Source: a virus. From it: a stretch of 64,000 nucleotides of DNA. The stretch spans positions 1 to 64,000 of the IMG/VR virus record IMGVR_UViG_3300044490_000250. One strand, written 5' to 3'. Both the position numbers and the translations under genes were made by a program. A model generated the notes under the pieces. The model was not told where the DNA came from. It saw only the letters and a list, made by a program, of their open reading frames with translations, and did not search any database. Shown one piece after another: positions 7,367-54,217 of the stretch (position 1 is the first letter of the stretch; each line of letters opens with the position of its first letter).

Positions 7367-7987
7367 GTGGACTACGGCAAGTTCATCGTCTTCGATGGCG
7401 CGGACGGTGTCGGCAAGACGACGATGGCCCGTCGATTGACGCAGTGGCTCGTCGACGCAGGCGTCCCGACGATCCTGGCCAAAGAGTCGGAGTCGGCGGA
7501 CCCCGCGGCGGCGGCGCTGTACGAAGCGGCCGTGGGGGACGCGGTCGGGGGGCGGCTGGAGCCCGTGGCCCTCCACCTGCTGTTCGCCTCGATGCGGGCG
7601 CAGCACGTAGCGCGGGTGGTACGCCCGGCGCTGACCTCCGGTACGTGGGTGGTGGGAGACCGCCACTCACTCTCGGGTCTCGTCTACGCCGGGTACGGAC
7701 TGGCGTTGCCCCTCCGTAACGTCTGGGATGTCGAGCGGACCGCGTGCGGACCCTTCCGGTCCCCGTCGCTGACCATCGTGTTGTTCCGCCGGCGTGGGAA
7801 GGTGGACGGCGAGCAGTTCTTCGAGCGCAAAGGGGACGACTTCCAGCGCCGAGTGCGGTACGGGTACGCCCAAGAGGCCAAGACGTGGGGGCTCCCGATG
7901 GTGTCGACGGACTGTAGCGAGGACGAGACGTTCGACAAGGTGCTCCTACACGTGAAGCCTTTGCTGAGGGAGGCGGCTGGTGACTGA
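7367..7987 (+). CDS. tmk: Thymidylate kinase-like enzyme
   Basis: 206 residues from GTG at 7367, behind GGAGGGG. Walker A is FDGADGVGKTT (about residues 9-19), and the DR motif is GDRHSLSGLVYAGYG (about 96-110), both typical of dTMP kinases, which make dTDP from dTMP. The usual C-terminal lid follows. A second kinase of the same fold is encoded on the other strand at 54217-54843. The gene overlaps the polymerase start by eight bases, so nucleotide supply and synthesis are translationally linked. The specificity could also be for another deoxynucleotide. Confidence 0.8.
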   Translation: MDYGKFIVFDGADGVGKTTMARRLTQWLVDAGVPTILAKESESADPAAAALYEAAVGDAVGGRLEPVALHLLFASMRAQHVARVVRPALTSGTWVVGDRHSLSGLVYAGYGLALPLRNVWDVERTACGPFRSPSLTIVLFRRRGKVDGEQFFERKGDDFQRRVRYGYAQEAKTWGLPMVSTDCSEDETFDKVLLHVKPLLREAAGD

Positions 7988-10769
7988 CGTGTGCGCGGAC
8001 TGCCCGCTTCGAGACACAACTCGCGTCGGCCCCAGCGGCCCGCCCCGTGCCGACTTGGCGATTGTCGGCCAGAGTCCCGGCGTGGACGAGGCGCGGCAGG
8101 GGCAGCCGTTTGTGGGCGTCTCTGGGCAGCTGCTGCGGGCCGCGCTGAAGCGGCTCAACGTCGACGCGACGCGGGTGTTCATCGCCAACGCCGTCTCCTG
8201 CGGGCCTCCACCAGACGGCTTCGAGTTCGACCACAAGACGGTCGTGGACTGCGCCCGCCGCCACCTGCACCCGGCGCTGTACGGGGTCCAGCCGAAGGTC
8301 ATCCTGACCCTGGGCAACGAGGCGCATGTTGCTCTCCACCACAGCGGGTCCATGTCGGGGGTCGAGCCGGGAGCGGGCCAGATCAGGTTGTGGGGCAAGG
8401 CGCGGACCGTCCGCGGGCTACACCCGGCGGCGGTGCTGCGTCAGCCTGACTTGTTTGGCGCCTTCTTCGCCTGCCTCGATCGGGCGGTTCAACTGGTGCG
8501 AGGGGAGTTCCGCCCCCTCGTGCTCCCTCGGATGCACGGCACCCTCAGCCGCGATGACTGTGTGGCGAAGCTGCGCCAGCTGCTGCAGCGGGGGGCGCCC
8601 GTAGCGTTTGACATCGAGACGCAGGGTGCATCGAAAACGGAAGCGCTCGACGAGTACCGGGGGGCGCTGGTGGGCGTGGCGTTCTCGGACGGCGACCTCT
8701 CCTTCTTTGTTCCGCTGTGCCACGCGGAGGGTGGGTACGGTGACGACGAGGAGCTGGGTGCTCTGCTCCGGCAGGTCCTCACGGAGCTCCCGACCATCAC
8801 GGCCAACGGCAAGTTCGACTGCCGCTGGATCGAGCGCCACCTGGGCTTCCGCCCCAACCTGACGGACGACGTGCTTCCGATGCACCACCTGTTTGACGAG
8901 ACCCGCCCGCACGGGCTGCAGTACATCAGCCGGTGGCTGCTGAACGCCCCGGACTGGAAGGACGAACTGCAGGAGGCGCTGAACGAGCAGGCACCGGAGC
9001 GCAAGGGCAACCACTACGTGGACCTGCAGTTGCTGGGGCAGTACGCGGCACGGGATGCGTACTGCACTTGGCGCTGCTGCGACACCATGCGTAACCACCC
9101 GCGCTTCTTCTCGTTTCTGCACCACTCGCCGATTCCGCTGTACACCGACCTCACACAGCCTTTGCTGAGTGTCCTACTCGACATCGAGACGGCCGGCCTG
9201 CGCGTGGACCGAGAGGCGCTGGCCCCGACGCACGACGCGATGCAGCGGTACATCCAGCAAGCCGACGCCGCCCTGAACGCGGTGGCGTTTGGCGGCGTCT
9301 CGCTCAGCGCCATCCGCCCGCCGATGATCCACAAGCGTCTTCAGCAGCGGGTGGAGCAGGCTCAGGAGAAGCACCCCGACTGGGGGGTGTCGTGGGATGG
9401 GCGGGGCGCCCCCAAGGTGGTCCCCTCCAGCAACAAGGCGAAGTCGGCCGCGAAGTGGTTGGACAAGACCGTGGAGTACATGGCCCCGGAGAACCTGGGC
9501 GGGACCACGTACATGGGCCTCGGCATCCAGCCCAGCAGCGACGCCCAGATGCGCTGGGTGCTGTACGAGTGGCTGGGCCTGTCGGCTCCCAAGAAGACAG
9601 ACAGCGGGGAGCCGAGTGTCGATCGGTTGAGCCTGGGGGAACTACGGGGTGCGCTGCGCCCCGACCCACTCGGGGACCCGGCCGCCTTCGAACGCGACGA
9701 CGCGGCGGTGCGGGTGATCGAGGCGCTGCAGCAACGTCGCAAGATCGCTAAGCTGGACGGCACCTACGTGCTGCGGTTGCTGAACAAGGGTCTCATAAAA
9801 GACGACGGGCGGGTGCATCCCTACTTTGGGTTCGACCCTGACACCGAAACCGTAGCGCGGACGGGGAGGCTCGCCGCACGAGACCCCAACCTGCAAAACC
9901 AGCCCGAGTCGTTGCGCCCACTGTACGTGCCGGAGCCGGGGTGCAAGTTCATCGAGGCGGACTTCGGGCAGATGGAGCTCCGCTGCTTGGCCTCCATCTC
10001 GCGCGATCGACAACTGCTCGACGCGCTGGCCGCGGAGGATGTACACACCGCGGTCACCAGCCAGATATTCGAGGTGCCCTACGAGCAGGTCGACAAGGAC
10101 CTGCGGAAGACCGGCAAGACCATGAACTTCGCCATCCTCTACGGCATGGGTGCGGGGAAGATGGCCACGACGCTGAACATCACGAAGGAGCGGGCGGAGG
10201 CGCTCATCGCGAAGCACCGGCAGCAGTTCCCTGAGGTGAACCGCCTCATTGACTACACGCACCAGCAGGTCAAGGATGTGGGGTTTGTCGTCAGCCCACT
10301 GGGTCGTGTGCGTCGTCTGCCGGCCGCGTTGTTCCTGAAGGACTTGCCTAAACGCTGGGACGATCTCGATGGGAAGGGAGGGCTGTCTGAATGCCTGCGG
10401 CAAGGGTTTAACTCCCTCGTGCAAGGGCTCGCGGCGGACATCACCAACCTCGCGCTGATCCGTTTGTCGCGAGAGATCACGGGGTATAAGGACTGGTGGC
10501 GGATTGTCAACACCGTTCACGACTCGGTGTTGGTGGAAGTTGAGGCGGGGCGGGCGGAGGAGCTGGCGGAGAAGATGCAGGACGTGCTGACCGCGGAGCC
10601 GTACCCTGGTTTCGGGGTTCCGTTGGTGGTGGACGTGACGATCAACGAGCGGTGGGGCGGGGAGCTGCGGCTGGACAACCTGCTACAAGAAGGGGACGAC
10701 GTTGAGGAAGACGAAGAAGAAGACGAAGGTCTCAGTGATGGAGATGCGGGTCACCGCGAGCCGCATTGA
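7980..10769 (+). CDS. Uracil-DNA glycosylase domain fused to family A DNA polymerase
   Basis: 929 residues. Residues 1-175 carry a CxxC pair (CADC) and a family 4/5-type uracil-glycosylase core: GQSPGVDEARQGQPFVG, a central FIANAVSC and a late GLHPAAV. Next is a 3'-5' exonuclease: FDIET near 210, NGKFD near 277 and YAARDAY near 355. The polymerase motifs are intact: motif A EADFGQMELR near 660, motif B RKTGKTMNFAILYGMG near 708, motif C NTVHDSV near 846 (HDS in place of the commoner HDE). The acidic tail (EEDEEEDEG) may bind partners. The fusion could couple template uracil recognition to synthesis. GTG start overlapping the kinase. Confidence 0.9.
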   Translation: MTDVCADCPLRDTTRVGPSGPPRADLAIVGQSPGVDEARQGQPFVGVSGQLLRAALKRLNVDATRVFIANAVSCGPPPDGFEFDHKTVVDCARRHLHPALYGVQPKVILTLGNEAHVALHHSGSMSGVEPGAGQIRLWGKARTVRGLHPAAVLRQPDLFGAFFACLDRAVQLVRGEFRPLVLPRMHGTLSRDDCVAKLRQLLQRGAPVAFDIETQGASKTEALDEYRGALVGVAFSDGDLSFFVPLCHAEGGYGDDEELGALLRQVLTELPTITANGKFDCRWIERHLGFRPNLTDDVLPMHHLFDETRPHGLQYISRWLLNAPDWKDELQEALNEQAPERKGNHYVDLQLLGQYAARDAYCTWRCCDTMRNHPRFFSFLHHSPIPLYTDLTQPLLSVLLDIETAGLRVDREALAPTHDAMQRYIQQADAALNAVAFGGVSLSAIRPPMIHKRLQQRVEQAQEKHPDWGVSWDGRGAPKVVPSSNKAKSAAKWLDKTVEYMAPENLGGTTYMGLGIQPSSDAQMRWVLYEWLGLSAPKKTDSGEPSVDRLSLGELRGALRPDPLGDPAAFERDDAAVRVIEALQQRRKIAKLDGTYVLRLLNKGLIKDDGRVHPYFGFDPDTETVARTGRLAARDPNLQNQPESLRPLYVPEPGCKFIEADFGQMELRCLASISRDRQLLDALAAEDVHTAVTSQIFEVPYEQVDKDLRKTGKTMNFAILYGMGAGKMATTLNITKERAEALIAKHRQQFPEVNRLIDYTHQQVKDVGFVVSPLGRVRRLPAALFLKDLPKRWDDLDGKGGLSECLRQGFNSLVQGLAADITNLALIRLSREITGYKDWWRIVNTVHDSVLVEVEAGRAEELAEKMQDVLTAEPYPGFGVPLVVDVTINERWGGELRLDNLLQEGDDVEEDEEEDEGLSDGDAGHREPH

Positions 10770-10899: not shown

Positions 10900-10966
10900 T
10901 CGAGACGCACCCCGCGCTTTAGCGTGGGTACACGTGCCCCTTGAGTGGGCGTTGGAGGACGGAACC

Positions 10967-11626
10967 ATGCGACGTGGATTCACACTAGTCGAGCTGCTGG
11001 TTGTGATCGCGATTATCGCGATCTTGGCAGCGATCCTGTTTCCCGTGTTCGCGAAGGCGCGCGACAAGGCGAAGGTCCCTTCGTGCGCCAGTAACCTGCA
11101 TCAGGTCGCCCTTGCGATTATGATGTACGTGGAGGACCACGACCGCTTCGGCCCCTATAACGACTGCGGCAACTTCGTCTCAAAGCGCGTCGAAGCCTAC
11201 AGCGCGGCGCGGCAGACCTCAACGCTGTGGTCGTGTCCGTCTGGTGGCTCCTACGCACTCCACCCCTACCGAGGTGGGAAGTGCCGCTCGTCGTCCTGCC
11301 CCAGCGCGCCGCCGTGGAATTACGACTACAACAACTGCGGACGTGTGGTGCACCCCTCTGAGGTAATGCTGATCGCCGACGCGAGCACGAGCATCCCACC
11401 GAAGGCCGAACCTGCCGGGCCCAACTGCTTCATCGATGCGAACGGCAACGGCACTGCCCGACACCTCGGCGTGAACAACATCGCCTACCTGGACGGGCAC
11501 GTTCGTGGTGTCACCCCTGGCGAGATGAGGCGCTCGCTGTCCACCGGAGACGCAGACGCAGACGGTGATGGTCAGCCTGACGGGAAGACCACGGGAGACG
11601 GAGCGTGGTACCGCTGGTACTACTGA
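10967..11626 (+). CDS. Prepilin-like protein (DUF1559 type, H-x9-DG)
   Basis: 219 residues from ATG at 10967, chosen because it puts a GGAGGA site upstream and the prepilin motif at the N-terminus: [15 protein letters not shown], followed by a 20-residue hydrophobic helix and [13 protein letters not shown]. The C-terminal region contains [12 protein letters not shown], which fits the H-x9-DG motif of the abundant pseudopilin-like proteins of Planctomycetota and Armatimonadota. It should be inserted in the inner membrane and cleaved by the host prepilin peptidase at the G/F bond. Several Cys and a Gly/Asp-rich tail ([13 protein letters not shown], calcium-binding-like) follow. It is an unusual gene for a phage and probably host-derived. 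Confidence 0.8.
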
Positions 11627-11901: not shown

Positions 11902-12885
11902 GTGCATCAGATCGTCCTGCTCGTTGCGACTCTCGTCTCTGCCGACCCGACGCTCTACGGCTGCTACGAGTCGGTCAACCGGTCCATGTACCCGGACCTT
12001 GCGCGTCTGTACTTTCGCGACCAGTACCGTCACGGGATGCGGAACGGGACAGTGAGCGGCAACACCTGCCACGCCTTCGGGCCGAACCAAGTGATCGGCC
12101 TCGCACGGCAGGTTGACATGATGGTGGAGGAGGGGATCGCGACGCCGGGCGCGCCGATGCTGGCGTTGAGCCTGGACCCCAAAGACATCGCGGCGTCGAA
12201 GGCCAGCGCGCGCTACCCGGCGCGCTGGCCTGAGCTGGTCTGCGGCAACGTGGACGAGCCAAACCCGACGCTGATCGGAGCCGTGCGCGCGAACGGGTCG
12301 GCAGCCTGGGCGGCGGGTGTCCGCAGCGGTACAGCGATCGCGGGCTACAACCTCTACCTGGACCCCGAGAGCGTCAAGTACGACGGACACCTTGCCGACT
12401 GGTTGGATATGTGGATCGTGCTGGCGTCAACGTGGCAACCCGACCTGCGCCGGAAGGCGCTGGAGGCGACTGCCGACCTGTGTGCCTACTGGGCGTACCC
12501 GCGCGAGCCCGACCGCGACCGCTACGTGGCCGGGCTGTGGTGCTGGAAGACGAACCCGAAGGTCTTCTACTACTGGGCGTACACACACGACCCGAACACG
12601 GGCATCCTGCCGAACGGCGTCAAGCAGCACGCGAAGGACGACGAGTTCTCGTTCGTGTATCCGTCGCCGACTGGGCCGGTGAGTACCCCGGCGTGGGAAG
12701 CGGCAGCGGAGGGCATTCGGGACCACGAGTTGCTCGACCGGCTGGCGGCGCAGGGCGGGAGTGAGGCATGGCTGTCAGAGCTGGCCGACAGCCTGCCGAC
12801 CGTCTGCCCCGTTCCGCCGAAGCCGGTGCCGTTCACAGACTGGAAGCGGTTGCGACGTGAATGCCTGAGGAGGCTGCACGGATGA
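11902..12885 (+). CDS. Putative glycoside hydrolase-like protein (DUF4091-type C-terminus), copy 1
   Basis: 327 residues from GTG. The first 14 residues (HQIVLLVATLVSADP) look like a short signal peptide. The C-terminal third has the hallmarks of DUF4091/GH123-type proteins: GLWCWKTNPKVFYYWAY, then DDEFSFVYPSPTGPV and AWEAAAEGIRDHELL, where the family has a 'GLF-WK...YW...YPG-DGP...R-EA-REGIEDYEYL' layout. A TIM-barrel hydrolase fold is expected. It is clearly paralogous to the next gene (shared TVSG/TVEG, QVDMMVEEGIATPGAPML/QVEAMMDAGLARPGEPML). Its substrate is unknown. The catalytic residues were not identified, so a non-catalytic sugar-binding role remains possible. Confidence 0.6.
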   Translation: MHQIVLLVATLVSADPTLYGCYESVNRSMYPDLARLYFRDQYRHGMRNGTVSGNTCHAFGPNQVIGLARQVDMMVEEGIATPGAPMLALSLDPKDIAASKASARYPARWPELVCGNVDEPNPTLIGAVRANGSAAWAAGVRSGTAIAGYNLYLDPESVKYDGHLADWLDMWIVLASTWQPDLRRKALEATADLCAYWAYPREPDRDRYVAGLWCWKTNPKVFYYWAYTHDPNTGILPNGVKQHAKDDEFSFVYPSPTGPVSTPAWEAAAEGIRDHELLDRLAAQGGSEAWLSELADSLPTVCPVPPKPVPFTDWKRLRRECLRRLHG

Positions 12886-13934
12886 TCCACTTTGGCTTCT
12901 ACTCTGCCCTGGGCCGGTTCGCCTACCCGTTCCGGTACCGCGAAGTCTACGGACACATGGCCGAGCTCGGCATGACGACCGGCACCGTGGAGGGCGGCTA
13001 CGCGCAACTGTGCCCGCAGGAGCCGCAAGTCGGCATGGTTCTGCAGGTGGAAGCCATGATGGACGCTGGGCTCGCGCGCCCAGGGGAGCCGATGCTGTTC
13101 ATCGCCGACACGGATGTCATTCGGGCCGCCATGCGGGCGAAGGAGCGCAAACTCAAGGAATCGCTGCCCGTGGCCGAGTCCAACCCGAGGCTGATCTACG
13201 ACGCGATGCAGCGGTCAAACCGGCTCCCCTGGCCGGCGCCGGTGTTGCACATCGCCGACGACCCGGCGCCGGTTGCGGGGATGCTCGATTGGCTCGCCCG
13301 CGAGCGCCTCAAGGCGCACAACTGCCACTTCCAGGTCGGCGGGAACCTCGCCGGGTACTTCCTGATGGAGGCGAAGACCGTCCGTGAGGGCGAGCCTCCG
13401 CAGACGCTCGGAGAGCAACTGGACGTGTGGATCGTCACCGCGAAGACGTGGCAGCAGGACACGGCAAAGAACGCCCGCGCCTTCGGCAAGCGCCTCTGGG
13501 CGCTGCACACCGACGGCTCGACCGGCAGCTACGAGAGGATGCGGTACCTGGGCCTGTGGGCCTGGGCCAACGGGCCGGAGCAAGTCCTGGTGTGGTCATG
13601 GACACACACCGCCGAGACGATGGTGCGGTGCGACGGCTCCCTGTGTGTGCCCAAGGACGACCACCACACCTACGCGATCCCGTCGCCGGATGGCTGGCAC
13701 GACACGCCGGGGCTGCTCGGCTACGCACAGGGCGTCAAGGACTGTCGGGCCATCGAGGCCGCAGAGCAGGCCGGGCTCCCGGCGGTCACGGCCTACTTGG
13801 CCGACCTGCGCCGGTCGGTTCCGTTCGCGTTCCCGCGCGAAGGGCGGCCGCTGCCCGCGCCGGAGGTGCGTGGCGAGGCGGTCGTCGCACAACTGGAGAA
13901 GCTGGCGCGCCAAGGACGGAAGAGAGGGGGCTGA
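12882..13934 (+). CDS. Putative glycoside hydrolase-like protein, copy 2
   Basis: 350 residues from ATG at 12882, preferred over 12861 because GAGGAGG lies upstream and the ATGA overlaps the previous stop. It aligns along its length with copy 1: QVEAMMDAGLARPGEPMLFI, LGEQLDVWIVTAKTWQ against HLADWLDMWIVLASTWQ, YLGLWAWANGPEQVLVWSW, and KDDHHTYAIPSPDGW...GYAQGVKDCRAIE. It has no signal peptide, unlike copy 1, so the two may act in different compartments. The long basic tail (RGEAVVAQLEKLARQGRKRGG) is extra. The pair represents an in-phage duplication followed by divergence, or acquisition of both. Confidence 0.6.
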   Translation: MIHFGFYSALGRFAYPFRYREVYGHMAELGMTTGTVEGGYAQLCPQEPQVGMVLQVEAMMDAGLARPGEPMLFIADTDVIRAAMRAKERKLKESLPVAESNPRLIYDAMQRSNRLPWPAPVLHIADDPAPVAGMLDWLARERLKAHNCHFQVGGNLAGYFLMEAKTVREGEPPQTLGEQLDVWIVTAKTWQQDTAKNARAFGKRLWALHTDGSTGSYERMRYLGLWAWANGPEQVLVWSWTHTAETMVRCDGSLCVPKDDHHTYAIPSPDGWHDTPGLLGYAQGVKDCRAIEAAEQAGLPAVTAYLADLRRSVPFAFPREGRPLPAPEVRGEAVVAQLEKLARQGRKRGG

Positions 13935-13939
13935 GTCCC

Positions 13940-14929
13940 GTGCATCCCGAGCCGCTGCACACACGGTTCCGGTTGTCGCCCTCCGGCCCGGTTCACATCG
14001 GACACGCGGCGTTGGCGTGGCTGTCTCAACAGGCCGCGCGCGCCACAGGCGGGACCTTCACGATCCGCGCGCAGAGCCTGTGGAACTCGCGCAGCGCCGA
14101 GAACTGGAAGAAGTACCAGAAGTGGGCGAAGGAGAACCTGGAGGCGCTGGTCGCCTGCGGCCTCGGGCCGTCTTCGCGCGAGTCGTTCCTCCTGCACGGC
14201 ATGGACCCCCAGTGGGCTCAGCAGCACATGGACGACCGCGCAACGGTCGACTGGTACTGGGAAGGCTGCAACTACGGCATCCCTGGGTTCAGCTTGGCGA
14301 AGCTGTTCGGCGGGTGGCCACCATTGGGCGATGTAGAAGTGGAGGACGACCGGCAAGCCCAGTACCTCGGCCCGCTGGCGCACAGCAGCGTCTACGCACC
14401 CTACGTGCGGATCGCGCAGATCGTGGGGGACATCACTACGGGGCGGAACTGCCTGCTGCGGGGGCAGGACCACTTCCAGGAGAAGGTCTTCGGGGATTAC
14501 TTCTACGCCCTGATCGCCAAGGAGCACTACCGCCTCGGTGATTTCGACCAGAGCGGGAGGTACGCTCCTGTGCAGTATTTCCTGCCCTTCGTGCGGATCG
14601 ACGACGACGCGAAGGTGAGTAGCTCCGACCAGAACACAGGGCGTGGGTTCTTCCTGCGGGACGTACTGGAGGCGGGCGTCCCGAACGAGGCGCTCCACGC
14701 GATGCTCGGCAAGATCATGTTCGGGTCCGTCGAGGCGGCGCAGATCGCCAACGCCACGTGGTCTACGGAGCCGGTCGCCAAGCCCAAGGACGCGACGGGC
14801 GCTGGAGTGTACCGGTACCCGGTGCAGGCCGGCGCCTGCTACGTGGTGGAGAGCCTCATCGTGCGGCAGCCGCGCATCAGCCGCGCCGAGTGGTTGCGTT
14901 TCCTACAGACCAGAGAGGTGCCGGAGTAA
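13940..14929 (+). CDS. GluRS/GluQ-like class I aminoacyl-tRNA synthetase catalytic core
   Basis: 329 residues from GTG at 13940. The start RFRLSPSGPVHIGHAALAWL is the class I HIGH signature in the glutamyl context (R-APSPTG-LHIGHA). LLRGQDHF corresponds to the GluRS VIRG-DHL block and DAKVSSSDQ to the KMSKS loop. About 60 residues remain after that loop, so the anticodon-binding domain of a full GluRS (about 470 residues) is absent, as in GluQ, which glutamylates queuosine in tRNA. The ED-TD motif near residue 40 is replaced by IRAQSLWNSRS, so the amino-acid specificity is probably changed. It is likely an amino-acid-activating enzyme acting on a tRNA, peptide or other acceptor. Confidence 0.65.
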   Translation: MHPEPLHTRFRLSPSGPVHIGHAALAWLSQQAARATGGTFTIRAQSLWNSRSAENWKKYQKWAKENLEALVACGLGPSSRESFLLHGMDPQWAQQHMDDRATVDWYWEGCNYGIPGFSLAKLFGGWPPLGDVEVEDDRQAQYLGPLAHSSVYAPYVRIAQIVGDITTGRNCLLRGQDHFQEKVFGDYFYALIAKEHYRLGDFDQSGRYAPVQYFLPFVRIDDDAKVSSSDQNTGRGFFLRDVLEAGVPNEALHAMLGKIMFGSVEAAQIANATWSTEPVAKPKDATGAGVYRYPVQAGACYVVESLIVRQPRISRAEWLRFLQTREVPE

Positions 14930-15828
14930 TGGTGCTTCGCACATGCCACTACCCCCCAGGGGACTGGCCGTGGACCACGTGGCCCGCCGGCCGGCTGTTT
15001 CTGCTCCCTCTGTGTGTCACCCCAGGGGGAGGTCGGGTGGACGCGCTGGCCCCGGGGGCGTTCGTCCAGCTGATGCGGCGTGGGCTGGAGCAAGACGCGG
15101 CGGTGGCCGCCCAGCCAGACTTACAGTGCATCAGTCGCAGCGACGTGCTCTGCGTACCCTTAGTGCACGAGGTCCTCTCTCGCTCCAGACGTGATTTACT
15201 GCTGGAGGAGCGTGAGGACTACGACGAGACCTGGGGGCTGGTGACGGAGTTGGGGCCGAAGTTGAGGGGCGTGTTGGTGGGGAACCAGCAAGGCAACTCG
15301 GAGTTGTCGTTCCGCCACCAGTACGGAACGTGGAGCGGGGACGCGGCGGGCAACTGCCGTGCCGTTGCCAAGTTCGTGCTAGAGCTCGGTGGACGGCTGC
15401 GCGAGGCGGGCGTGCAGCCGTTCTTCGGGGTCATCAACTGGGACTTGATCCAGGATGCCTACCTGGGCGGCGAGGTTGTGTTGCGCGCGCTGAACAAGGT
15501 GGGAGCCATCAACATCTGTTTTTGTGGGTACGGGCTCGCGCCCGGCGCCTTCATCAAGCCCCACAAGGACCACCCTCAGGACTGTCGGCGCTGGTTGTGT
15601 GAGCTGGAGGGTAGAGGGTGGAGAGACCCAGCGGATGATGAGGCCTTCCCCACCATGAGTCAGTACCTTCGTCGGGGCCAGTTCTGGTCGGGGCTGTGCG
15701 GCACCGAGGGAGTGCGCGCGGGGAACCTCACGATCCTCTCCCAGTTTGGCTTCCAAGGGTACGCCACAAAGGTGGACGAGCCGGCCCGCGACGATCTGGT
15801 GCGGGAGTTCGGTGAGTGGTGGAAATAG
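14929..15828 (+). CDS. Hypothetical protein, possibly barrel-fold
   Basis: 299 residues; the ATG overlaps the preceding TAA. It alternates strand- and helix-like segments (VQPFFGVINWDLIQDAY, ALNKVGAINICFCGYGL, NLTILSQFGFQGYATKV) in a way compatible with a TIM-barrel like that expected for the two hydrolase-like neighbours, but I see no DUF4091-type C-terminus and no family signature. It has several Cys, with no membrane or signal segment. Its tight coupling to the synthetase-like gene suggests a shared pathway. Confidence 0.55.
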   Translation: MVLRTCHYPPGDWPWTTWPAGRLFLLPLCVTPGGGRVDALAPGAFVQLMRRGLEQDAAVAAQPDLQCISRSDVLCVPLVHEVLSRSRRDLLLEEREDYDETWGLVTELGPKLRGVLVGNQQGNSELSFRHQYGTWSGDAAGNCRAVAKFVLELGGRLREAGVQPFFGVINWDLIQDAYLGGEVVLRALNKVGAINICFCGYGLAPGAFIKPHKDHPQDCRRWLCELEGRGWRDPADDEAFPTMSQYLRRGQFWSGLCGTEGVRAGNLTILSQFGFQGYATKVDEPARDDLVREFGEWWK

Positions 15829-30828: not shown

Positions 30829-31770
30829 TCAGGACCAGCAAAAGCATCCAGTGCGCGCAGCGTGGGAAGCGGTGTCCACGGCGGCCTGGACTGCGTGGTG
30901 TAGGCTGAACCCCTGAACCAGCTCCGACGTGAACTTGGCCACAAACACGTCGCCGGCTCCACAGGTGTACCGGCCTGGAGTGGCATCCCCCGGCCGCACC
31001 CACACTGGCTGGGGGATCGGGGTGCCGCAGGAGTTGTACACAGCCCCGCTTGCGCCTTGCGTCACCACCACCGCCCCCAACCTGCGGTACCGTGCAAAGG
31101 CGGTCGTCCTGCCGGCGAGAGCGTGCAGCACGTCCACAGGGCGCGCCGGTCTGCGCGCCGACCGGCGGCGTTGGACTCTGGCGACAGCGTCTGCGTACTC
31201 GGCGGCGTTGGGGGTGGCGTAGTCCACGTGGCAAGGCAGGGGGATCAGCGGTGGCGTCTTGATGTCCACCACCACCAGCACCTCCTTCGGGCAGCCCTCA
31301 AGCAGCCAGCCCAGCCGCTCCAGCGCCCCACGGCCGTACCCACTCACCACGAGCGCGGCCACGCCAGTCCAATCAAGCGGCGCCGAGTAGACGGCCTCTC
31401 GGGAGGTGGCGGGGTTGTAGTCCCAGCGCCCAGAGATGACCGGGGTGCCGTCAGGTTCTCGGCGACCCGTGCGTATGCGAAGCAGCGTCTCCCCGGCTCG
31501 CAGGTAACTCCTCCGCTGCACTCCCACAGCCTGTAGAAGCTGATCCAGAGTGTCCCCGTAGGCGTCGGTGCCCAACTCGGCGCAGAGAAACACCGGGTGG
31601 TAGTTGACAGCGAGCACCCGTGCGACGTTGGATGCCATCCCCGGGCTGTACTCTGGAGGCGTGGCCATCTCGTGGAGGATGCAGGGGGCCTCCTGAGCCA
31701 GCCTTTGCGGAGCCCCCATCATCCAAACGTCCAAAGCTACGTCACCCAGCACGACAATCTTCGGTGGCAT
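30829..31770 (-). CDS. PfkB-family sugar kinase (HldE/RfaE kinase-like)
   Basis: 313 residues from ATG at 31770. It starts PKIVVLGDVALDVWMMG, followed by QEAPCILHEMATPPEYSPG, the same layout as the heptose-7-phosphate kinase domain of HldE (GDVMLD...PEAPVPV...PGGAAN). The anion-hole motif CGAGDVFVAKF near residue 280 holds the catalytic Asp. It would phosphorylate a sugar phosphate for a nucleotide-heptose-type precursor used by the nearby glycosyltransferases. Ribokinase-like or other PfkB specificities remain possible. Confidence 0.7.
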   Translation of the reverse strand: MPPKIVVLGDVALDVWMMGAPQRLAQEAPCILHEMATPPEYSPGMASNVARVLAVNYHPVFLCAELGTDAYGDTLDQLLQAVGVQRRSYLRAGETLLRIRTGRREPDGTPVISGRWDYNPATSREAVYSAPLDWTGVAALVVSGYGRGALERLGWLLEGCPKEVLVVVDIKTPPLIPLPCHVDYATPNAAEYADAVARVQRRRSARRPARPVDVLHALAGRTTAFARYRRLGAVVVTQGASGAVYNSCGTPIPQPVWVRPGDATPGRYTCGAGDVFVAKFTSELVQGFSLHHAVQAAVDTASHAARTGCFCWS

Positions 31771-31825
31771 CAGTGAGCGCCTCCCGTTTCTGAGACATCT
31801 ACGAACCGCGTGTTGAGCAGCGGGT

Positions 31826-32677
31826 CTACAGTCGGGCACCCTGCTCGTCGTAGTTCATCAGCAGCAGCTCCGTGCGGCGCGCCTCCGAGGGCTGGTGAGA
31901 GCGACTGGCGCAGAACACGTCACGCTCGACACGCCTCCAGCCGGCGTAGAGTGTGTCCACCAAAGGGCAGATGTAGTTGCTGACCATGACGCGAGCCTGA
32001 CACTCGTTCAGCGCAGCGGCGAGCCGACGATCGTCAGCCTCAACCCACGGGTATCGGTAGTACGGGTTCGTGTCGGAGTCGCGGTAGACGGTTGTGGTGT
32101 ACGGGCTGTCCACGTAGAATAGGGTGTCGCGGTGGTCGTACTTGGTGATGATCTTCGCGAAGTCCAGATTCTCGAAGAGCACCTCTTGGATGCGTTGACT
32201 GACCGCCGCGATCCTGGCTGTCGCGCTACGAAACGCCCGCGGGGCCCAGCTCTTCTGGTCCAGGTCCGGGTGGTGGTGGAACCCCGCGTTGTCCTTGGCG
32301 ATCCAGGAGCTAAACGAGGTTCGTAACAGGTAGAAGAACCGAACCGCGCGCTCCATGTCGCTCAGTTGGCGCCAGTCGTCTGGGGTGTAGAGGTACTGAC
32401 GCCGCCACTGCCGGAAACGGTTCCGGGAGTAGGGCAGCCGGTTGAGGTGCGAGATCAGCTCTTCCGGCCGGAGGCGCACCACTTCCCAGAGGTTGATGAG
32501 GCTGTCATCCAGGTCGTTGACCACCTCACGCACCTCACTGTTGTAGGGCCGGGCCAGCAGGATACCGCAGGCACCGGCAAACGGCTCGACGTACATTCGA
32601 TAATCTGTGGGCAGATGCGGGAGAATCCACCGAGCGTGGCTGGCCTTCCCACCCACCCAGGCAAACGGGGGTCTCAC
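31826..32677 (-). CDS. Adenine-N6 DNA methyltransferase, D12 class (Dam-like)
   Basis: 283 residues. It shows the D12 arrangement: PPFAWVGGKA at the N-terminus (AdoMet site), YVEPFAGACGILL, and the catalytic DSPYTTT near residue 189, where Dam has DPPY. VMVSNY (near 235) is the usual strand after the motif. It probably methylates adenine in phage DNA against host nucleases. The target sequence cannot be told. It sits within a set of sugar genes and overlaps the adjacent glycosyltransferase by four bases. Confidence 0.8.
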   Translation of the reverse strand: MRPPFAWVGGKASHARWILPHLPTDYRMYVEPFAGACGILLARPYNSEVREVVNDLDDSLINLWEVVRLRPEELISHLNRLPYSRNRFRQWRRQYLYTPDDWRQLSDMERAVRFFYLLRTSFSSWIAKDNAGFHHHPDLDQKSWAPRAFRSATARIAAVSQRIQEVLFENLDFAKIITKYDHRDTLFYVDSPYTTTVYRDSDTNPYYRYPWVEADDRRLAAALNECQARVMVSNYICPLVDTLYAGWRRVERDVFCASRSHQPSEARRTELLLMNYDEQGARL

Positions 32678-33699
32678 AGAGCAAGCACCTCTCGGTAGAG
32701 ATCAACGCACGCCGCCGCAGCGTCATCCCACCTGTAGAGGCGGGCCCGACGCGCCACGTCGAAGTTGCGGAGCTGGCAGCTCTCGGGCTGCCAAGTCATC
32801 ATCTGCGCCATCCCGGTAATGACCGCGGCGGGGTCGAACGGGTTGGCGTACTCCGCCGCCGTACCGAAGACTTCCCGCTCCGACGCTTGGTTTCCTACCA
32901 GGACGGGCAGCCCCACCGTCATCATCTCCAGCGCGGCCAGCCCGGGGGTCTCGTAAAGGCTGACCTGCCAGCCGAAGCGCGCGGAGGCCATCGCCGCCGC
33001 CAGACAGGCCCGGTCCAGGATGGGGGGCCAGAACGAAACGCGCCCTTGACGCTCACGACGAGCGTGGCCGATCACCACCCCTTTGCACTTGAGCTCGTCG
33101 CACGCCTCAACGAAGAGCCACCCGTTCTTGCGGTCTTCGAAGCGGCCCACGTAGAGCCACGCGCCCTGCAGGTCCTCCTTCAGCTGAGGGTCCAACGGCG
33201 CCTGCGCCATGCCAAACAGGTCCTCCACGGCGTTGTACTGCACCCGCCACGGAGGACAGGCACCCTCAAGCATCTGAGCGATGACGCCCTGCTCGGTGTA
33301 GCTGTTCGGCAGCGCGCCGGCGCACGCCCGTAGGAGCTGCGCCAAGTGCCTCTCGTGCCGCATCCCCTCCTCCGTCCCCTCAAGGTACGCCCGCTCCGCA
33401 GAAACCCCAGCACGCTGCTTCTGGTACGTCGCGAAGGCGTGCATGGGCCAGTAGATGGTGCTCAGCACAAACTGCTTGCGGTGTTCCTCGCACCAGTCCA
33501 CCACCTGCTGCTCCGCGCGACTGCTCGCGAAGCGCACAAGGTGGATAATGTCAGCGTCGACCGCCTCGGCGATGTCCGCAACTTCGACGTGGCTCACACA
33601 CTGCACGGCGGGGTGCTTCGCCACGGCGCTCACTAGCTGCCGCGCGACCTGTTGGCTTCCACCTAAGGCCCCCGTCGCGCCTACCATGACCACCTTCAT
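32674..33699 (-). CDS. Family 4 glycosyltransferase
   Basis: 341 residues, GT-B type. N-terminal MVGATGALGGSQQVARQL, linker region LYVGRFEDRKNGWLFVEA and the donor-binding motif SLYETPGLAALEMMTVGLPVLVG (near 245-268, with the paired Glu) are standard GT4 features. It should transfer a nucleotide-activated sugar, acceptor unknown. It overlaps genes on both sides by four bases, so the block is translated as a unit. Confidence 0.75.
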   Translation of the reverse strand: MKVVMVGATGALGGSQQVARQLVSAVAKHPAVQCVSHVEVADIAEAVDADIIHLVRFASSRAEQQVVDWCEEHRKQFVLSTIYWPMHAFATYQKQRAGVSAERAYLEGTEEGMRHERHLAQLLRACAGALPNSYTEQGVIAQMLEGACPPWRVQYNAVEDLFGMAQAPLDPQLKEDLQGAWLYVGRFEDRKNGWLFVEACDELKCKGVVIGHARRERQGRVSFWPPILDRACLAAAMASARFGWQVSLYETPGLAALEMMTVGLPVLVGNQASEREVFGTAAEYANPFDPAAVITGMAQMMTWQPESCQLRNFDVARRARLYRWDDAAAACVDLYREVLAL

Positions 33700-34748
33700 A
33701 GCACATCGTCTCCTCTGATTCTCGCAAGGATGCGGGGGGAGTCGCTCCGCACAATCTGTAGATGAGACAGCACGTAGTCCAGCACCTTCAACCGCTGCCA
33801 GGACATCCCGGGGTCCTGCTCCTCCCTGGTCTTACCATAGAACGTTGAGCCGTAGACGAGGGTCTCCTGAGCGTAGAACCACGCCTCCAGCGCGACGTTG
33901 GAGCAGAGCGTCAGCACCTTGATGTGCGGCAGAGACAGGATGCTGTGGATGTTGAGGTCGGCCGCCAGACGACGCGAGTACCCGACAGCCACCGCAGGAC
34001 TCGGGCACCGAGGGTGAGGCTTGAACCACGCACCCTCCCGCTCAGCCGCGCTCCGCAGGTCAAGCAACACCTGCTCGACGTTGGGCTGCACGTAGAGCGC
34101 GTTGTCCCACTCCACCTGCCCGAACCAGACTGTGTCCCCCGGCTCGACCACCGTTTCTCGCAGGGCCACAAGCCGCTGGTGCCCTGGCTTGGTCTGCTGG
34201 AGGCGGCGCCACCACCGCCCGTAGTCACGCACCCGCTGGGTGTGTGGCTCCCAAGAGGCAAACCACTCCGCGCGGTCGAGCGACGCCCCCAACACGTAGT
34301 AGGGCACGTCCCGCGTGATGATGACCGGCACGTCCCCGTCTTGTGAGGGGAAGAGCCCGTTCTCCAGGAAGGCGACAGGGACGCCCGCCTCCGCGGCGGC
34401 GAGCCTTGCACTCCAACTCACCACTTCGTGCGTCGCCCAGATCAGAACCACATCTGGCCGGCTCTCCTCCAGGCGTTGACGCCAGCAGTTCAAGTACCAC
34501 TGCGCGCGCCGCTCCCACCACGGCACAGAGTTGGGGGCGTCACGGTACCGCGAGTAGCGGTGGTTCGCCGCCCACAGCATGTACTGCACCGCACACTGCG
34601 TCAGCGGCTCGATGTCGCCCGCTGCCCCAGAGACAGGCGGCACGTCGGCCCACACCTCCACTGCCTCCCCTTCCCGCATCAGCGACTGCGCCAGGGGGGC
34701 CATGACGTGCTTCTCGATGTCGTAGTTCTCAGGGACCAGCGCGATCAT
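33696..34748 (-). CDS. Capsule-type glycosyltransferase / polysaccharide synthesis protein
   Basis: 350 residues from ATG at 34748. FLENGLFPSQDGDV and WFKPHPRCPSP resemble the conserved blocks of the KpsC/KpsS capsule (Kdo transferase-like) family and other GT-B enzymes (KPHP), followed by HIKVLTLCSNVALEAWFY, the usual acceptor/donor-side block. It probably adds a sugar to a lipid- or protein-linked acceptor. The family assignment is by these motifs only. Confidence 0.55.
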   Translation of the reverse strand: MIALVPENYDIEKHVMAPLAQSLMREGEAVEVWADVPPVSGAAGDIEPLTQCAVQYMLWAANHRYSRYRDAPNSVPWWERRAQWYLNCWRQRLEESRPDVVLIWATHEVVSWSARLAAAEAGVPVAFLENGLFPSQDGDVPVIITRDVPYYVLGASLDRAEWFASWEPHTQRVRDYGRWWRRLQQTKPGHQRLVALRETVVEPGDTVWFGQVEWDNALYVQPNVEQVLLDLRSAAEREGAWFKPHPRCPSPAVAVGYSRRLAADLNIHSILSLPHIKVLTLCSNVALEAWFYAQETLVYGSTFYGKTREEQDPGMSWQRLKVLDYVLSHLQIVRSDSPRILARIRGDDVL

Positions 34749-35020
34749 CGGACGACCTTGGCGAGGTAGTGGCCACACTCAGGGGCCACGGCCTCTTCCA
34801 GCCACTCCTGCATACTCTCAGCGAGCGTCCCCCAGTCAACCGGCTGCGGCAGCGCCTCAGCGAGGTCCTGCAGCATCTGGGTGAGCTGGTCCGCGACGGT
34901 GTGGTAGTCCACACACTTAGGCTGAAGGATGCACGTGGCACAAGCGGGGACCCCAGGCTGCGCTGGCAGCGGGTCGCCCTGGTACGTGTTGGGCAGCGCC
35001 CTTTCGAGTTGGAGATACAC
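34745..35020 (-). CDS. Small Cys protein resembling a detached SPASM-like cluster domain
   Basis: 91 residues from GTG, two bases after the radical SAM stop. Its Cys27-x2-Cys30-x5-Cys36-x3-His40 pattern (CATCILQPKCVDYH), with Cys82 further on, is like the CX2CX5CX3C core of SPASM auxiliary iron-sulfur domains that normally sit at the C-terminus of radical SAM enzymes, with His in the fourth place. Most likely it binds an auxiliary cluster for its neighbour or serves as its substrate or partner. Confidence 0.55.
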   Translation of the reverse strand: MYLQLERALPNTYQGDPLPAQPGVPACATCILQPKCVDYHTVADQLTQMLQDLAEALPQPVDWGTLAESMQEWLEEAVAPECGHYLAKVVR

Positions 35021-35022
35021 TC

Positions 35023-35895
35023 CTACACCTCCCTCATCCCTACGTCAGTGGCCACCCTGCGTGCCCACACCCACACGGGGGTGAGTAGCTCGCCCACTGA
35101 GTAGTCCTGTTCAGTCAGCCAGTAGTCGAACATCCACTGTGCATCCCAGTGCGGGGGGATGTCGGTGGCCCACTCATAGGGAGCGGGGTGCACCCACGTC
35201 ACGATCAACGGAAGACCACGGTGGAGTTGCTTCAGCGTGTCGCAAAAGTCGTGCATGGCGGCGCGCGCCTGCGGCGAAGTCCACGCGCCCGGCACCACTG
35301 TCCAGCAGTTGACGAGCGTCTGGTGGCCCGCCGTCAACAGGGCGCGTAAGGTGTCCAACGGGTCGGGCTGTTCCTCCACGCCGCTGTTCCACCGGCGGAG
35401 CTCCGGGGTGAGCCCCTTGATGCTCAACTCAGGGAACACCCGTCGCGGGTACACTGGGATGCGCTCCGGGTGGGCACCGTTGGTGTTGACGACCACGATG
35501 TGGTTGTCCCCCGCGGCGTGCTGCAGTGCCGTAATCAACTCGGGGAGCTCGGGTTCCAACGTGGGCTCTCCTCCGCTCACCCGCCACACCGGGCAGTCCC
35601 CCGCCGTCTGCACAAAGTCGTCCACGATCTCCCGCGGCGTCCGCAGTACCGTCTCTGTGCTACGCCCCCTCCAGTAGCATCCGTGACACCGCATCTGGCA
35701 GGTTGCGGTGTCGATCATCGCCACGTCGTTTGCCTCCGCGATCGTGTACGCGCGGGGCAGCCACGCACACGCCACTTCCGGCCACGGAGCGAATGCCTCC
35801 ACGTCCTCCGGCTCCTTGTAGTACGTCTTGACTCGCACGATGTCGCTTCGCTTGCCGTTCCCGCTGCGCTGCTCCGGCACCACTTCGAGTATCAT
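35023..35895 (-). CDS. Radical SAM enzyme
   Basis: 290 residues. The cluster motif CQMRCHGC near residues 65-72 (CX3CX2C), GGEPTLE near 110 and VNTNGAHP near 138 define an AdoMet radical protein. No full SPASM domain follows; a separate Cys protein is encoded immediately downstream. Neighbours are glycosyltransferases, so it may modify a sugar, a nucleotide or a protein/peptide acceptor; 7-carboxy-7-deazaguanine synthase-like or peptide-modifying types are conceivable. Its substrate cannot be assigned. Confidence 0.8.
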   Translation of the reverse strand: MILEVVPEQRSGNGKRSDIVRVKTYYKEPEDVEAFAPWPEVACAWLPRAYTIAEANDVAMIDTATCQMRCHGCYWRGRSTETVLRTPREIVDDFVQTAGDCPVWRVSGGEPTLEPELPELITALQHAAGDNHIVVVNTNGAHPERIPVYPRRVFPELSIKGLTPELRRWNSGVEEQPDPLDTLRALLTAGHQTLVNCWTVVPGAWTSPQARAAMHDFCDTLKQLHRGLPLIVTWVHPAPYEWATDIPPHWDAQWMFDYWLTEQDYSVGELLTPVWVWARRVATDVGMREV

Positions 35896-36875
35896 CCGTC
35901 CAGCACCTCATTTAGAGTGACACCTCTGGTCTTCAACAGAAAGTCCACGCCCCGAACGACCCTGTCCACCCTGTGCGCGGTTTGACACCGGGCGCCGCAC
36001 CCAGCCACTTGGTACCGGTACTCGCAAGGAGAGCACGTCAAGTCCTTAGGTTCCAGCGCCAGCAGGGGACCGGGGCAGTCCGGTAGGCGGAGCGCCGCTG
36101 ACGACACCCCCATGAGCGCCAGCAGTTTGATGGGCAGCCCGCCGGCCTTCAGCGCGGCGCACAGATGAAGAGGACTGGAGTCCGCCGAAATGACAACGTC
36201 GCACGCCGCGATGGCCGCCGCGCACTTGCGAAGGGCGCTCCTTCCGTCCATCACAGCGTCCACGGCCGGCGGAGCGTTGTCCCCAATCCACACCACCGAC
36301 CCCCGTTCCTGGAGGGGCGCCACTGCATCGGCAGCCGCCGCCCACCGCCGTTCCGCGGAAGAGGACTCCGCACAGACACCGATCAACGGCCGACGCAGGC
36401 TGCTCAACGAGCGCTGCGCGTCGACCAGCTCCTCGCGTTCGATGTAGTAGTCCAGGTGCAGACTGCTCAGTCGCAGCCCGAGTGCCTCGGCAAACAAGCG
36501 AGCGCGTGGGGTCTGGCAGCATTGAGGGTGGCGCTCCGGGTAGTGGCGTAGATCGGCCAGCACACCGGGCGCGGTGTGGTCCAGCTCACCAAAGTCGCGT
36601 ACCTCATGGACGTTGGGGTTCCCCCGCAGCACCTCGGCGCTTCTGGGGGAAGTGTAGTAGGTCACTCGCAAGCCTGGGTACTGACGTTGCAGCTGGCGCA
36701 GAGCGGGCGTCGTCATTAGCACGTCCCCGGCACCGCCTGGACGCACAATCGACAGCCCCACCTCTTGTGCACGCATCAAGTCCACCGGCAGCAGCACACG
36801 CCGGTCACGTTGACGTAGAAAGGTCTGCACGAAACTCGCAGCTTGGTTGGGGATGTCGGTGCGTTGAAAGCGCAA
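35892..36875 (-). CDS. Family 9 glycosyltransferase (heptosyltransferase-like), copy 1
   Basis: 327 residues from TTG, behind GAGGAGACCGAGGG. The motif IVRPGGAGDVLMTTPALRQL (near 42-62) is the GT9 donor-side start (ADP-heptose:LPS heptosyltransferase family), and ISADSSPLHLCAAL (near 230) the conserved second-half block. A C-terminal Cys set (LTCSPCEYRYQVAGCGARC) also occurs in many GT9 proteins. First gene behind the promoter at 36944. Works with the PfkB/HldE-like kinase is inferred. Confidence 0.8.
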   Translation of the reverse strand: MRFQRTDIPNQAASFVQTFLRQRDRRVLLPVDLMRAQEVGLSIVRPGGAGDVLMTTPALRQLQRQYPGLRVTYYTSPRSAEVLRGNPNVHEVRDFGELDHTAPGVLADLRHYPERHPQCCQTPRARLFAEALGLRLSSLHLDYYIEREELVDAQRSLSSLRRPLIGVCAESSSAERRWAAAADAVAPLQERGSVVWIGDNAPPAVDAVMDGRSALRKCAAAIAACDVVISADSSPLHLCAALKAGGLPIKLLALMGVSSAALRLPDCPGPLLALEPKDLTCSPCEYRYQVAGCGARCQTAHRVDRVVRGVDFLLKTRGVTLNEVLDG

Positions 36876-44333: not shown

Positions 44334-46124
44334 TCACTCCTCGTCGGCTGTCGCTGACGCCGAACGGATTTCCAGCGGGACGAACCTACCTGTCTCGATG
44401 CCAACGCGCGCCGCCTCGCGCAGGTTGTCCACGGTCACTAGGTCCCCGCGCGAGGCCTCGACAACGTTGCCCACGATCTTGCCGCCGACTGCCCCGTAGA
44501 CCGGACGCCCCTCGGTCAGGTTCTCCCACCAGGACGGAGAGGCCGGAGTCCACGGAGGGTCCGCGACCGGCCACATTTCCCAGCCGGACGAAATGAGCGT
44601 GTCGTCCATGTCGTACAGGCTGTAGGACTGCAGGGCCGAGGCAGGAATGGTCGTCCCCGAGAGATCAAGCACCGTATGCGGCAGCGGCTCGCTCACGTAC
44701 CCGTTCCCGAGGCTTGCATCTGCGAACTGGTACTGGTCCCCGCTGGACTCGTTCTGCATGTACGCGGGAGGCCCGCCGAGTTCTAGGTTCGGGTGAACCC
44801 CAGCGTTCCCCCACGGCAGCAGTCCCTCTGTGTAGGCGGGCTGGGGCGACCACGTCGCCGACCGGCAGACTCCAATCCGGAAGGTAATCTGCGGGTCCCA
44901 CACTTCTCCCGCGCTGAGGACCTGCGTTGTGACCGCGCACCCTCGGTCGTCGATAATCCGAATCTGCGTGACGCCGCCCGTCATCGAGACGGTGACCTCT
45001 CCGTTAGCGTCGGTAGTCCCGGCCTGCTCCCAGACGGAGGGGGTGCCGCGACGCTTCCAGACCGCCGCCCCGACCGCGCGGTCAGCCGAGCCATCCAGGT
45101 AGGCCCGCACGAGGATTACGCTGTCTGCGCTATGGTCTACCCAGGAGCCCAGCGCGACGGTTCCGGTCCCGCCGTTTGCGGCCAGCGTGGTAGACCCGCG
45201 CGGAACCTCCTTGGTCGTGTCAGTCGGGTGAAATGCGGCAACCGCGTACTCGCCCGGCGGCAGGCCAGTCAGCGTGCGCGACCCGCCAATCGGGATGGTA
45301 TGGGCCGCCCTCCGTTGTGCGCCCTCCCAGTAGGCGATGATCTGAGCCCCGACCGGGCCGGTTACGGTCAGCTCGCAGGAGGCCACGTTCAGCGTCGTGC
45401 TCGCTCCCTCGCTCACAGGCGCGGACTCCTGCAGGTACCAGACCTCTACCTCGGTTAGCAACCGTTCGGCATCCGGGCAGTCAGTCCAGCCGTCCGTCTC
45501 TGTTGACCTGTAGCCAAGCGCCCCGAACCCGCGCGGCACGATGATCGGCTGCAGTGTGCCAGTTGTCACATCCCACAGGACCCCGTCCACGTCCGTCTGG
45601 AAGCGCCCGGTCGCCGCGCCCCACGTCGCCCCCGCCTTGCTCGGGTACGCGGGCTGCCACCACGCATCGTGCGCCCCATCGGAGGTTGAGTAGGTGAACA
45701 CGAGATCGGCATACACGCCCGCCTCCAGCACCCCGCCCTTCTTGATCGTGATTTCCCCGGGAGCCCAACCCATTGTGAAGACCCCCGAGTCCTCGGCGGC
45801 GTACTCGGAGGCCTCGGCCCAGGTCCCCGCGACTCCGACAACCGACCGGCCCCAGCCCCACGGGGCCGGTCCGTCATCAAGGACGAGGCAGAACAGCGCA
45901 GGGTCGGCATCCTGCTGTAGGACGCCGACCCTGAACACAGCGTCTGATGCCGCAACGAGTGGGTAGTCGGTACCGTCAACCGTCGCCTTCAGGGCACGGA
46001 AGCTGAACGTGTTGCCGGCGTAGGTGACGGTGCCCCGCCCGTCCTCGTCGGTCGTGTTGGTGACGGCGCGGATGGTCCCGGCGGCGTCTGCGAAGTTGAG
46101 TTGATCCCCGATGTTGAGAGGCAT
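44334..46124 (-). CDS. Tail fibre-like protein with Ig/carboxypeptidase-regulatory domains
   Basis: 596 residues. The segment SRTLTGLPPGEYAVAAFHPTD (about 285-305) is a carboxypeptidase-regulatory-like domain, and VSMTGGVTQIRIIDDRGCAV another beta domain. The N-terminal 200 residues are beta-rich with many aromatic residues. It probably forms a fibre or baseplate component. Its ATG has a GAGAGG site and lies inside another open frame (see 45989-46396). Confidence 0.55.
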   Translation of the reverse strand: MPLNIGDQLNFADAAGTIRAVTNTTDEDGRGTVTYAGNTFSFRALKATVDGTDYPLVAASDAVFRVGVLQQDADPALFCLVLDDGPAPWGWGRSVVGVAGTWAEASEYAAEDSGVFTMGWAPGEITIKKGGVLEAGVYADLVFTYSTSDGAHDAWWQPAYPSKAGATWGAATGRFQTDVDGVLWDVTTGTLQPIIVPRGFGALGYRSTETDGWTDCPDAERLLTEVEVWYLQESAPVSEGASTTLNVASCELTVTGPVGAQIIAYWEGAQRRAAHTIPIGGSRTLTGLPPGEYAVAAFHPTDTTKEVPRGSTTLAANGGTGTVALGSWVDHSADSVILVRAYLDGSADRAVGAAVWKRRGTPSVWEQAGTTDANGEVTVSMTGGVTQIRIIDDRGCAVTTQVLSAGEVWDPQITFRIGVCRSATWSPQPAYTEGLLPWGNAGVHPNLELGGPPAYMQNESSGDQYQFADASLGNGYVSEPLPHTVLDLSGTTIPASALQSYSLYDMDDTLISSGWEMWPVADPPWTPASPSWWENLTEGRPVYGAVGGKIVGNVVEASRGDLVTVDNLREAARVGIETGRFVPLEIRSASATADEE

Positions 46125-53432: not shown

Positions 53433-54217
53433 CAGGTTGCCAACTCCGGGTCAACCAGCGCCGCCCTCACACGAGGCGCGCGGTTCTGGCACAGACTCAC
53501 AGCCGTGGTGTAGCAGTGCCGAACGAACCGGCTGTACCGACTCTCGGTCGCCTTCTGCGTCACCCGCATGTCGCCCATCTGGATGTTGATGTCCCCGCCT
53601 GCGAGATCGTCGTCGGTGTTGCTGTCGAACGCCTCCGCAAACGGGATGATGTAGGCGCAGACGAACAACGCCGCAGCGGTGGCGATGTTGGCGGGGACCT
53701 CTTCGTACCCCCAGGTCATCGTCACCGCCACATTGAGGAACCCATGCGGGAACAGCGGACCGCCCCGACGCAAGGTCGGGTAGGCATCGGTGAGTGTCAG
53801 CTCCCCGGTGTAGATCAGCCAACCGTCGCCCGTCACGTAGTAGGCATCGTCAGACACCGTCACGTCATCCACCACCAGCGCGGTGACCTCGATGATCCGC
53901 TTCGCCGGTATCCCAAAGTCCTTGAGGTCCAGCCGGTCCGTGCCGGCGCCGTTGATGTAGAGCGTCTCCTCCTCGTAGTACCCAAACCCCTGCTTGGCCG
54001 TCTGCCGCACCTTCTCAGCCGCCACGGGCAACCAGAGATCGATCAGCGCGTTGCGGGCCGCCTCGTCACCGAGGTTCGCTAGCGGGTCGCCGTCGCCGCC
54101 GCCCACCACCGTCCCCCGGTTGATCCCGGCCAGCAACTGCAGCACCGCGTCGCGCGTGCAGTAGGTCTCATCCTCGTCGACCAGCTGGCTCGCGTGTGTC
54201 AGTTTCGGAGTCGCCAT
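53432..54217 (-). CDS. Head-tail adaptor (gp6/gp15-like)
   Basis: 261 residues from ATG at 54217, overlapping the kinase stop. Helical core (LWLPVAAEKVRQTAKQGFGY, IATAAALFVCAYIIPFAEAF) with beta hairpins (YYVTGDGWLIYTGELTL) resembles the DNA-packaging adaptor of the HK97 gp6 group. It would sit below the portal. Confidence 0.6.
   Translation of the reverse strand: MATPKLTHASQLVDEDETYCTRDAVLQLLAGINRGTVVGGGDGDPLANLGDEAARNALIDLWLPVAAEKVRQTAKQGFGYYEEETLYINGAGTDRLDLKDFGIPAKRIIEVTALVVDDVTVSDDAYYVTGDGWLIYTGELTLTDAYPTLRRGGPLFPHGFLNVAVTMTWGYEEVPANIATAAALFVCAYIIPFAEAFDSNTDDDLAGGDINIQMGDMRVTQKATESRYSRFVRHCYTTAVSLCQNRAPRVRAALVDPELAT

Follow-up and report, generated by a model that had tools for sequence, protein, structure and literature searches.

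A phage-borne GluRS-family catalytic domain with an altered glutamate pocket lies in a gene cassette found in two phages

The tailed phage analysed here encodes an intact GluRS-like class I protein that consists of the catalytic domain only, carries an altered glutamate pocket, and lies in a gene cassette that recurs in a second phage. The reading that we favour, with middling confidence, is that of a catalytic-domain-only enzyme of the GluRS family, borne on a mobile cassette, that would turn ATP and a carboxylate into an acyl-adenylate, would make no Glu-tRNA(Glu), and would serve a non-tRNA acceptor. The window, the whole stretch of DNA that was analysed, covers the first 64,000 bases of a virus record that is 79,558 bases long, with 65% GC. 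Terminase, portal, head and tape-measure proteins matching PHROGs identify a tailed phage, which also encodes a DNA polymerase, helicases and a RecA/UvsX-like protein; the GluRS-like gene is situated between the polymerase and the RecA-like gene (Table 1). The polymerase is a DNA polymerase I (7980-10769) whose N-terminus resembles, at the sequence level, a uracil-DNA-glycosylase domain, and the window holds two thymidylate-kinase-like genes (7367-7987 and 54217-54843). A cluster on the - strand at 30829-36875, encoding a PfkB-type carbohydrate kinase, a D12 DNA methyltransferase, glycosyltransferases and a radical SAM protein, possibly serves glycan synthesis by the phage.

Table 1. Features of the GluRS-like gene and its cassette, in window coordinates; residues follow the P0001 numbering, in which residue 1 is at base 13931 and the GTG start is residue 4.
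Feature	Position	Strand	Basis
Gene 14, prepilin-like (N_methyl, DUF1559), cassette member with an L237 homologue	10934..11626	+	
Gene 16, 327 aa, signal-like N-terminus, GH123-catalytic-domain-like; 88.7% identity to L237	11902..12885	+	
Gene 17, paralogue of gene 16 (28% identity), ending 5 nt upstream of the GluRS-like start; likely start ATG 12882	12861..13934	+	
AGAGAGGGGG, Shine-Dalgarno-like, 9 nt upstream of the GTG	13921..13930	+	sequence
GluRS-like class I catalytic-domain protein, 329 aa; start GTG 13940, stop TAA 14929	13940..14929	+	ORF, PF00749, profile vs shuffles, AF2 model
R14, at the GluQRS Ala11 position (Glu contact); also R in L237	13970..13972	+	pocket alignment
HIGH motif H22-I-G-H25, ATP site	13994..14005	+	alignment with 22 GluRSs
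A47-Q-S-L-W51 where IEDTD is expected; Q48 at GluQRS Glu45 (acid contacting Glu); LW common to L237	14069..14083	+	alignment
V159, at the GluQRS Tyr172 position	14405..14407	+	18-residue spacing to R177 in all aligned rows
RGQDH, residues 177-181; R177 = GluQRS Arg190, retained	14459..14473	+	pocket alignment
KVSSS, residues 228-232, degenerate KMSKS	14612..14626	+	sequence, alignment
Gene 19, 299 aa, with an L237 homologue that also follows the GluRS-like gene	14929..15828	+	

The GC content of the reading frame at the three codon positions (0.64/0.46/0.89) resembles that of the adjoining genes and marks it as coding; its 329 codons stayed open in none of 2000 shuffles. PF00749 matches the first 50 residues (E 3.2e-7; 30.0 bits, above the curated cut-off of 23.4). 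A profile of 22 GluRSs, made without the window protein, matches both of its halves (35.2 bits, E 4.4e-10; the top score among 1000 shuffles was 3.4 bits), with the first 50 residues carrying most of the signal and the second half alone scoring a weak 7.9 bits. BLASTP aligns residues 10-181 with a mini-GluRS of another phage, L124, at E 3e-10. The protein is a distant relative of the Glx-type class I catalytic domain, beyond chance. An earlier note on this DNA had described a minimal enzyme of the GluRS kind, class I, that lacks the anticodon-binding domain, and that description holds: alongside the PF00749 match, the anticodon-binding domain PF19269 is absent from the whole virus record in a search whose control was positive in 11 of 14 genomes.

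The AF2 model of the window protein, for which GluRS rows were supplied, is confident in its Rossmann core (pLDDT 80-90) and has low confidence at residues 83-155 (the insert) and 274-314 (the C-terminus). Superposition, which the earlier note had suggested together with structure prediction, returned a GluRS-like fold (VIA Z 19.4 over 265 residues, 3.6 A), with GluQRS fitting less well (Z 15.3) and MshC less well again (Z 12.5); because GluRS rows were part of the model input, neither the fold match nor the preference for GluRS over GluQRS is independent evidence. Both the fold and the domain loss are well supported. The anatomy of the insert is uncertain because confidence is low there; the insert is shortened where GluRS carries its acceptor-arm (zinc-binding-type) region. 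The stretch from the Glu45 to the Tyr172 position counts 111 residues in the window protein, 108 in its counterpart in the second phage (L237), 102, 82 and 74 in the phage mini-GluRSs L124, L136 and L137, 127 in GluQRS and 139 in E. coli GltX. A zinc-binding region is missing from some bacterial GluRSs, in which tRNA charging is presumed (PMC4381286). Elsewhere, a 443-aa GluRS with a shortened zinc-binding region occurs on a 533-kb virus contig (L121, 2480-3808).

The second phage, L237 (IMGVR_UViG_3300044996_000076, part of a 32.9-kb phage contig), was found by searches with genes 16 and 17. Its genes run in the order pilin-like, gene 16 homologue (88.7% identity), ClpP-like, a 316-aa GluRS-like protein and gene 19 homologue, so that the two phages share the succession of pilin-like, GH123-like, GluRS-like and gene 19-like genes. 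The L237 GluRS-like protein (locus 9785-10735) matches PF00749 at 33.6 bits (E 2.6e-8) and the E. coli GluRS structure at E 8e-12; the gene 19 homologue is 23% identical over 115 residues (E 2e-5). The product of gene 16 is similar to the final part of a GH123 catalytic domain, and PF13320 is present in its plasmid match (43% over 65 residues, E 2e-4). Gene 19 starts with an ATG that overlaps the TAA with which the GluRS-like gene stops (TAATG); its model (pLDDT 46) has a weak alternating beta/alpha pattern, and fold matches beyond that pattern were not trusted at such confidence. The prepilin-like product of gene 14 contains a 10-residue sequence typical of Armatimonadota, which is odd for a phage and hints at the host.

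In L237 the cassette is flanked by the tape measure on one side and by the homologue of the window's gene 56 on the other; in the window, about 29 kb separate the cassette from gene 56, and the two are on opposite strands. DNA identity between the phages is limited to islands that end abruptly, including at the end of gene 16. The differing genome position and these abrupt ends point to the pilin-like, GH123-like, GluRS-like and gene 19 set as a transferable module. Two islands, 11941-12878 and 44382-46111, have 88% DNA identity to L237 and sharp ends in phages that have otherwise diverged; they point to recent module exchange. The two synthetase-like proteins are about 21% identical (pairwise BLASTP E 9e-4) and form a clade with support of 72/93 on long branches; the Ala-to-Arg and TD-to-LW changes and the cassette position are common to both. 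The public-database scans were pattern-based and may have missed near kin, known cassettes number two, and the IMG/VR records are possibly contig fragments.

All three motifs named in the earlier note were found: HIGH is intact, RGQDH is present, and KMSKS is degraded to KVSSS, which retains K228 and S230 and has serine for the second lysine. Its statement on the glutamate-binding ED-TD region needs correction: EDTD reads QSLW, the residues being altered one by one rather than deleted, and the flanking R46 and R54 are retained. In E. coli GluQRS, glutamate is contacted by Arg9, Ala11, Ser13, Glu45, Tyr172 and Arg190 (PMC12736043). The corresponding residues of the window protein are R12, R14, S16, Q48, V159 and R177, so that three of the six contacts are retained (R12, S16, R177) and three changed (Ala to R14, Glu to Q48, Tyr to V159); by the canonical GluRS and the GluQRS pattern alike, the pocket is half conserved and falls short of the family's. 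The alignment is firm in the part where the Tyr172 and Arg190 positions are 18 residues apart in every row; Y158 was considered as the pocket tyrosine and rejected, as this constant spacing assigns V159. At the same six positions L237 has S, R, T, D, H and A, and the mini-GluRSs L124 and L136 have R, A, S, D, Y and R, five of six retained plus a conservative Glu-to-Asp change. Retention of the Arg pair suggests a substrate with an acidic side chain, and the absence of the pair from L237 indicates that the two enzymes probably differ in substrate.

These departures give weight to the strongest rival, a pseudoenzyme that would form no adenylate and keep its fold for binding, for example as a scaffold, or as an inhibitor or decoy of the host's GluRS. 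The missing second KMSKS lysine, the three altered glutamate contacts and the very long branch speak for it. However, HIGH is intact, K228, S230, R12, S16 and R177 are retained, and the L237 version has KLSKS; moreover, human TyrRS is functional with KMSSS. On balance a pseudoenzyme is somewhat unlikely, and it is weighed here ahead of the other alternatives.

Phage relatives bear on whether the protein could instead charge tRNA. Direct searches of named phages and IMG/VR with the window protein found nothing. Among the matches listed, an IMG/VR search for GluRS and GluQRS returned mostly full-length GluRSs and also catalytic-domain-only genes: L124 (295 aa, 113-kb phage contig; L135 is the same contig) and L136 (about 270 aa, 63-kb phage contig); a further one, L137 (285 aa), lies on the 634-kb phage LR745206 in the phage collection. 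Alignments A2, A3 and A7 include artificial rows that widen the search patterns, and no conclusion rests on them: A2 returned full-length GluRSs in IMG/VR and no matches in GTDB genomes, A3 had no matches, and A7 returned GluQRS, archaeal GluRS and an apparent archaeal TrpRS among the matches listed in GTDB genomes. The examined stretches of kin identified by their DNA polymerase held no GluRS-like gene. Synthetases occur in huge phages (PMC7162821), and the earlier note's view that they are rare outside giant phages needs refinement, as catalytic-domain-only GluRSs also occur on the 63- and 113-kb contigs, possibly fragments.

In BLASTP and phmmer alike, the window protein scores best against L124 and L136. 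With L137 these form a clade of their own (support 100/99), apart from GluQRS and without the window protein, whose branch is too long for it to be placed. The window protein is likewise phage-borne and catalytic-domain-only and lacks their conserved glutamate pocket. Apart from a weak polymerase match, no neighbouring genes of the mini-GluRSs are in common with the window. The L124 record has 55 tRNA matches, L137 61, L136 two and the window's record one. LR745206 encodes a full GluRS and a GlnRS beside the mini-GluRS (region about 23.5-24.2 kb), so the mini form need not do ordinary charging. The single tRNA of the window's record, with anticodon CAA (Leu) and an encoded CCA, lies on the - strand at L002 9285-9361 (record 73285-73361) and has a short variable loop, as against the long arm of bacterial tRNA-Leu. 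A mini-GluRS of altered specificity, charging a host or phage tRNA such as this one, could be argued from the kinship with phage mini-GluRSs, the tRNA-rich L124 record, the one odd tRNA, and the existence of bacterial GluRSs without the zinc-binding region (PMC4381286). It is improbable, given an anticodon-binding domain absent from the record, an insert of 111 residues where E. coli GltX has 139, and a phage tRNA that is unlinked and 58 kb distant.

GluQRS is a GluRS paralogue with another function (PMC9437257), and it activates glutamate without tRNA (PMC12736043). An enzyme that adds glutamate to queuosine or a similar hypermodified base of tRNA or another nucleic acid would account for the matching domain content and size and for the fold match of Z 15.3. 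Membership in GluQ, which the earlier note had raised, is not borne out, and such an activity is quite improbable: the NCBIfam/TIGR03838 GluQRS equivalog models score 26-30 bits against cut-offs of 250-277, the glutamate pocket is not conserved, GluRS structures fit better (a preference biased by the GluRS rows), and the protein falls outside the GluQ clade, on a branch too long for firm placement. A decaying GluRS pseudogene, for which divergent motifs and the lost C-terminal domain might speak, is scarcely credible beside an intact frame with strong coding bias, tightly packed and overlapping neighbours, an equivalent gene retained in L237 and a record free of any anticodon-binding-domain remnant. 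The truncated host GluRS that the earlier note had named as its refutation was sought and is absent, and a frameshifted host gene was rejected for want of PF19269; the frame downstream is a separate gene with an L237 homologue, and the best matches are equally short phage proteins.

Three findings together speak for the preferred reading, carboxylate activation without charging of tRNA(Glu): the fold, the missing domain and the altered pocket. The protein would bind ATP and convert a carboxylate to its acyl-adenylate, and would no longer produce Glu-tRNA(Glu). Its substrate is probably a glutamate analogue or another acid, since both arginines for the side-chain carboxylate are kept, whereas the conserved tyrosine and the contacts for the alpha-amino group have changed. 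The activated acyl group would most likely pass to a non-tRNA acceptor, because the tRNA-binding parts are missing, the neighbours in the cassette point that way, and GluQRS and MshC set precedents; GluQRS itself acts on a tRNA base. Gene 19 is a probable partner, its start codon overlapping the stop codon of the GluRS-like gene. Against this stand the serine in place of the second KMSKS lysine, which makes a pseudoenzyme possible; the Arg pair, which fits plain glutamate too; the bacterial GluRSs without a zinc-binding region that are presumed to charge tRNA (PMC4381286); and the two known cassettes, whose enzymes are so divergent (E 9e-4; 72/93) that a common origin within GluRS is not established.

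Conceivably, though this is a distinctly speculative extension, the set is an exchangeable acyl-ligase cassette. Its synthetase-derived enzyme would make an acyl-adenylate and, together with gene 19 and the secreted GH123-like and pilin-like proteins, attach an amino acid or another acid to pilin or to a glycan on the host surface; each cassette would have its own specificity, for instance for superinfection exclusion. PADLOC matched no known defence system. New ligase chemistry is known to arise from synthetase paralogues that have been released from tRNA charging, and the literature covered, mostly titles and abstracts and not exhaustive, yielded no phage GluRS-family paralogue of this sort. 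Differing pocket variants beside an 89%-identical neighbour gene in two phages make substrate diversification directly testable, and the phage mini-GluRSs are natural anticodon-domain-free enzymes for testing the bare GluRS core.

Compared with known systems, the window protein shares with bacterial GluRS (GltX) the class I fold, HIGH, RG(E/Q)D and the 18-residue Tyr172-Arg190 spacing, but has no anticodon-binding domain, a shorter insert and a changed pocket. GluQRS (YadB), at about 300 aa, is likewise a catalytic domain without the anticodon domain, but it has all six glutamate contacts, and its models give the window protein 30 bits against a 250-bit cut-off. The phage mini-GluRSs (L124/L135, L136, L137; about 270-295 aa) have the same single domain, whereas L124 and L136 keep the glutamate pocket (five of six, with Glu to Asp) and KLSKS or KMSKR. 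The 316-aa L237 protein is alike in cassette position, in the Ala-to-Arg and TD-to-LW changes and in the loss of the Tyr172 residue; unlike the window protein, it has lost both pocket arginines (S, A), retains the acid (D) and KLSKS, and is only about 21% identical. An analogy of function comes from class I synthetase-derived ligases whose acceptors are not tRNA, among them MshC. MshC hands an aminoacyl-adenylate to a small molecule; it is CysRS-derived, and its likeness to the window protein is one of fold match (Z 12.5) and analogy.
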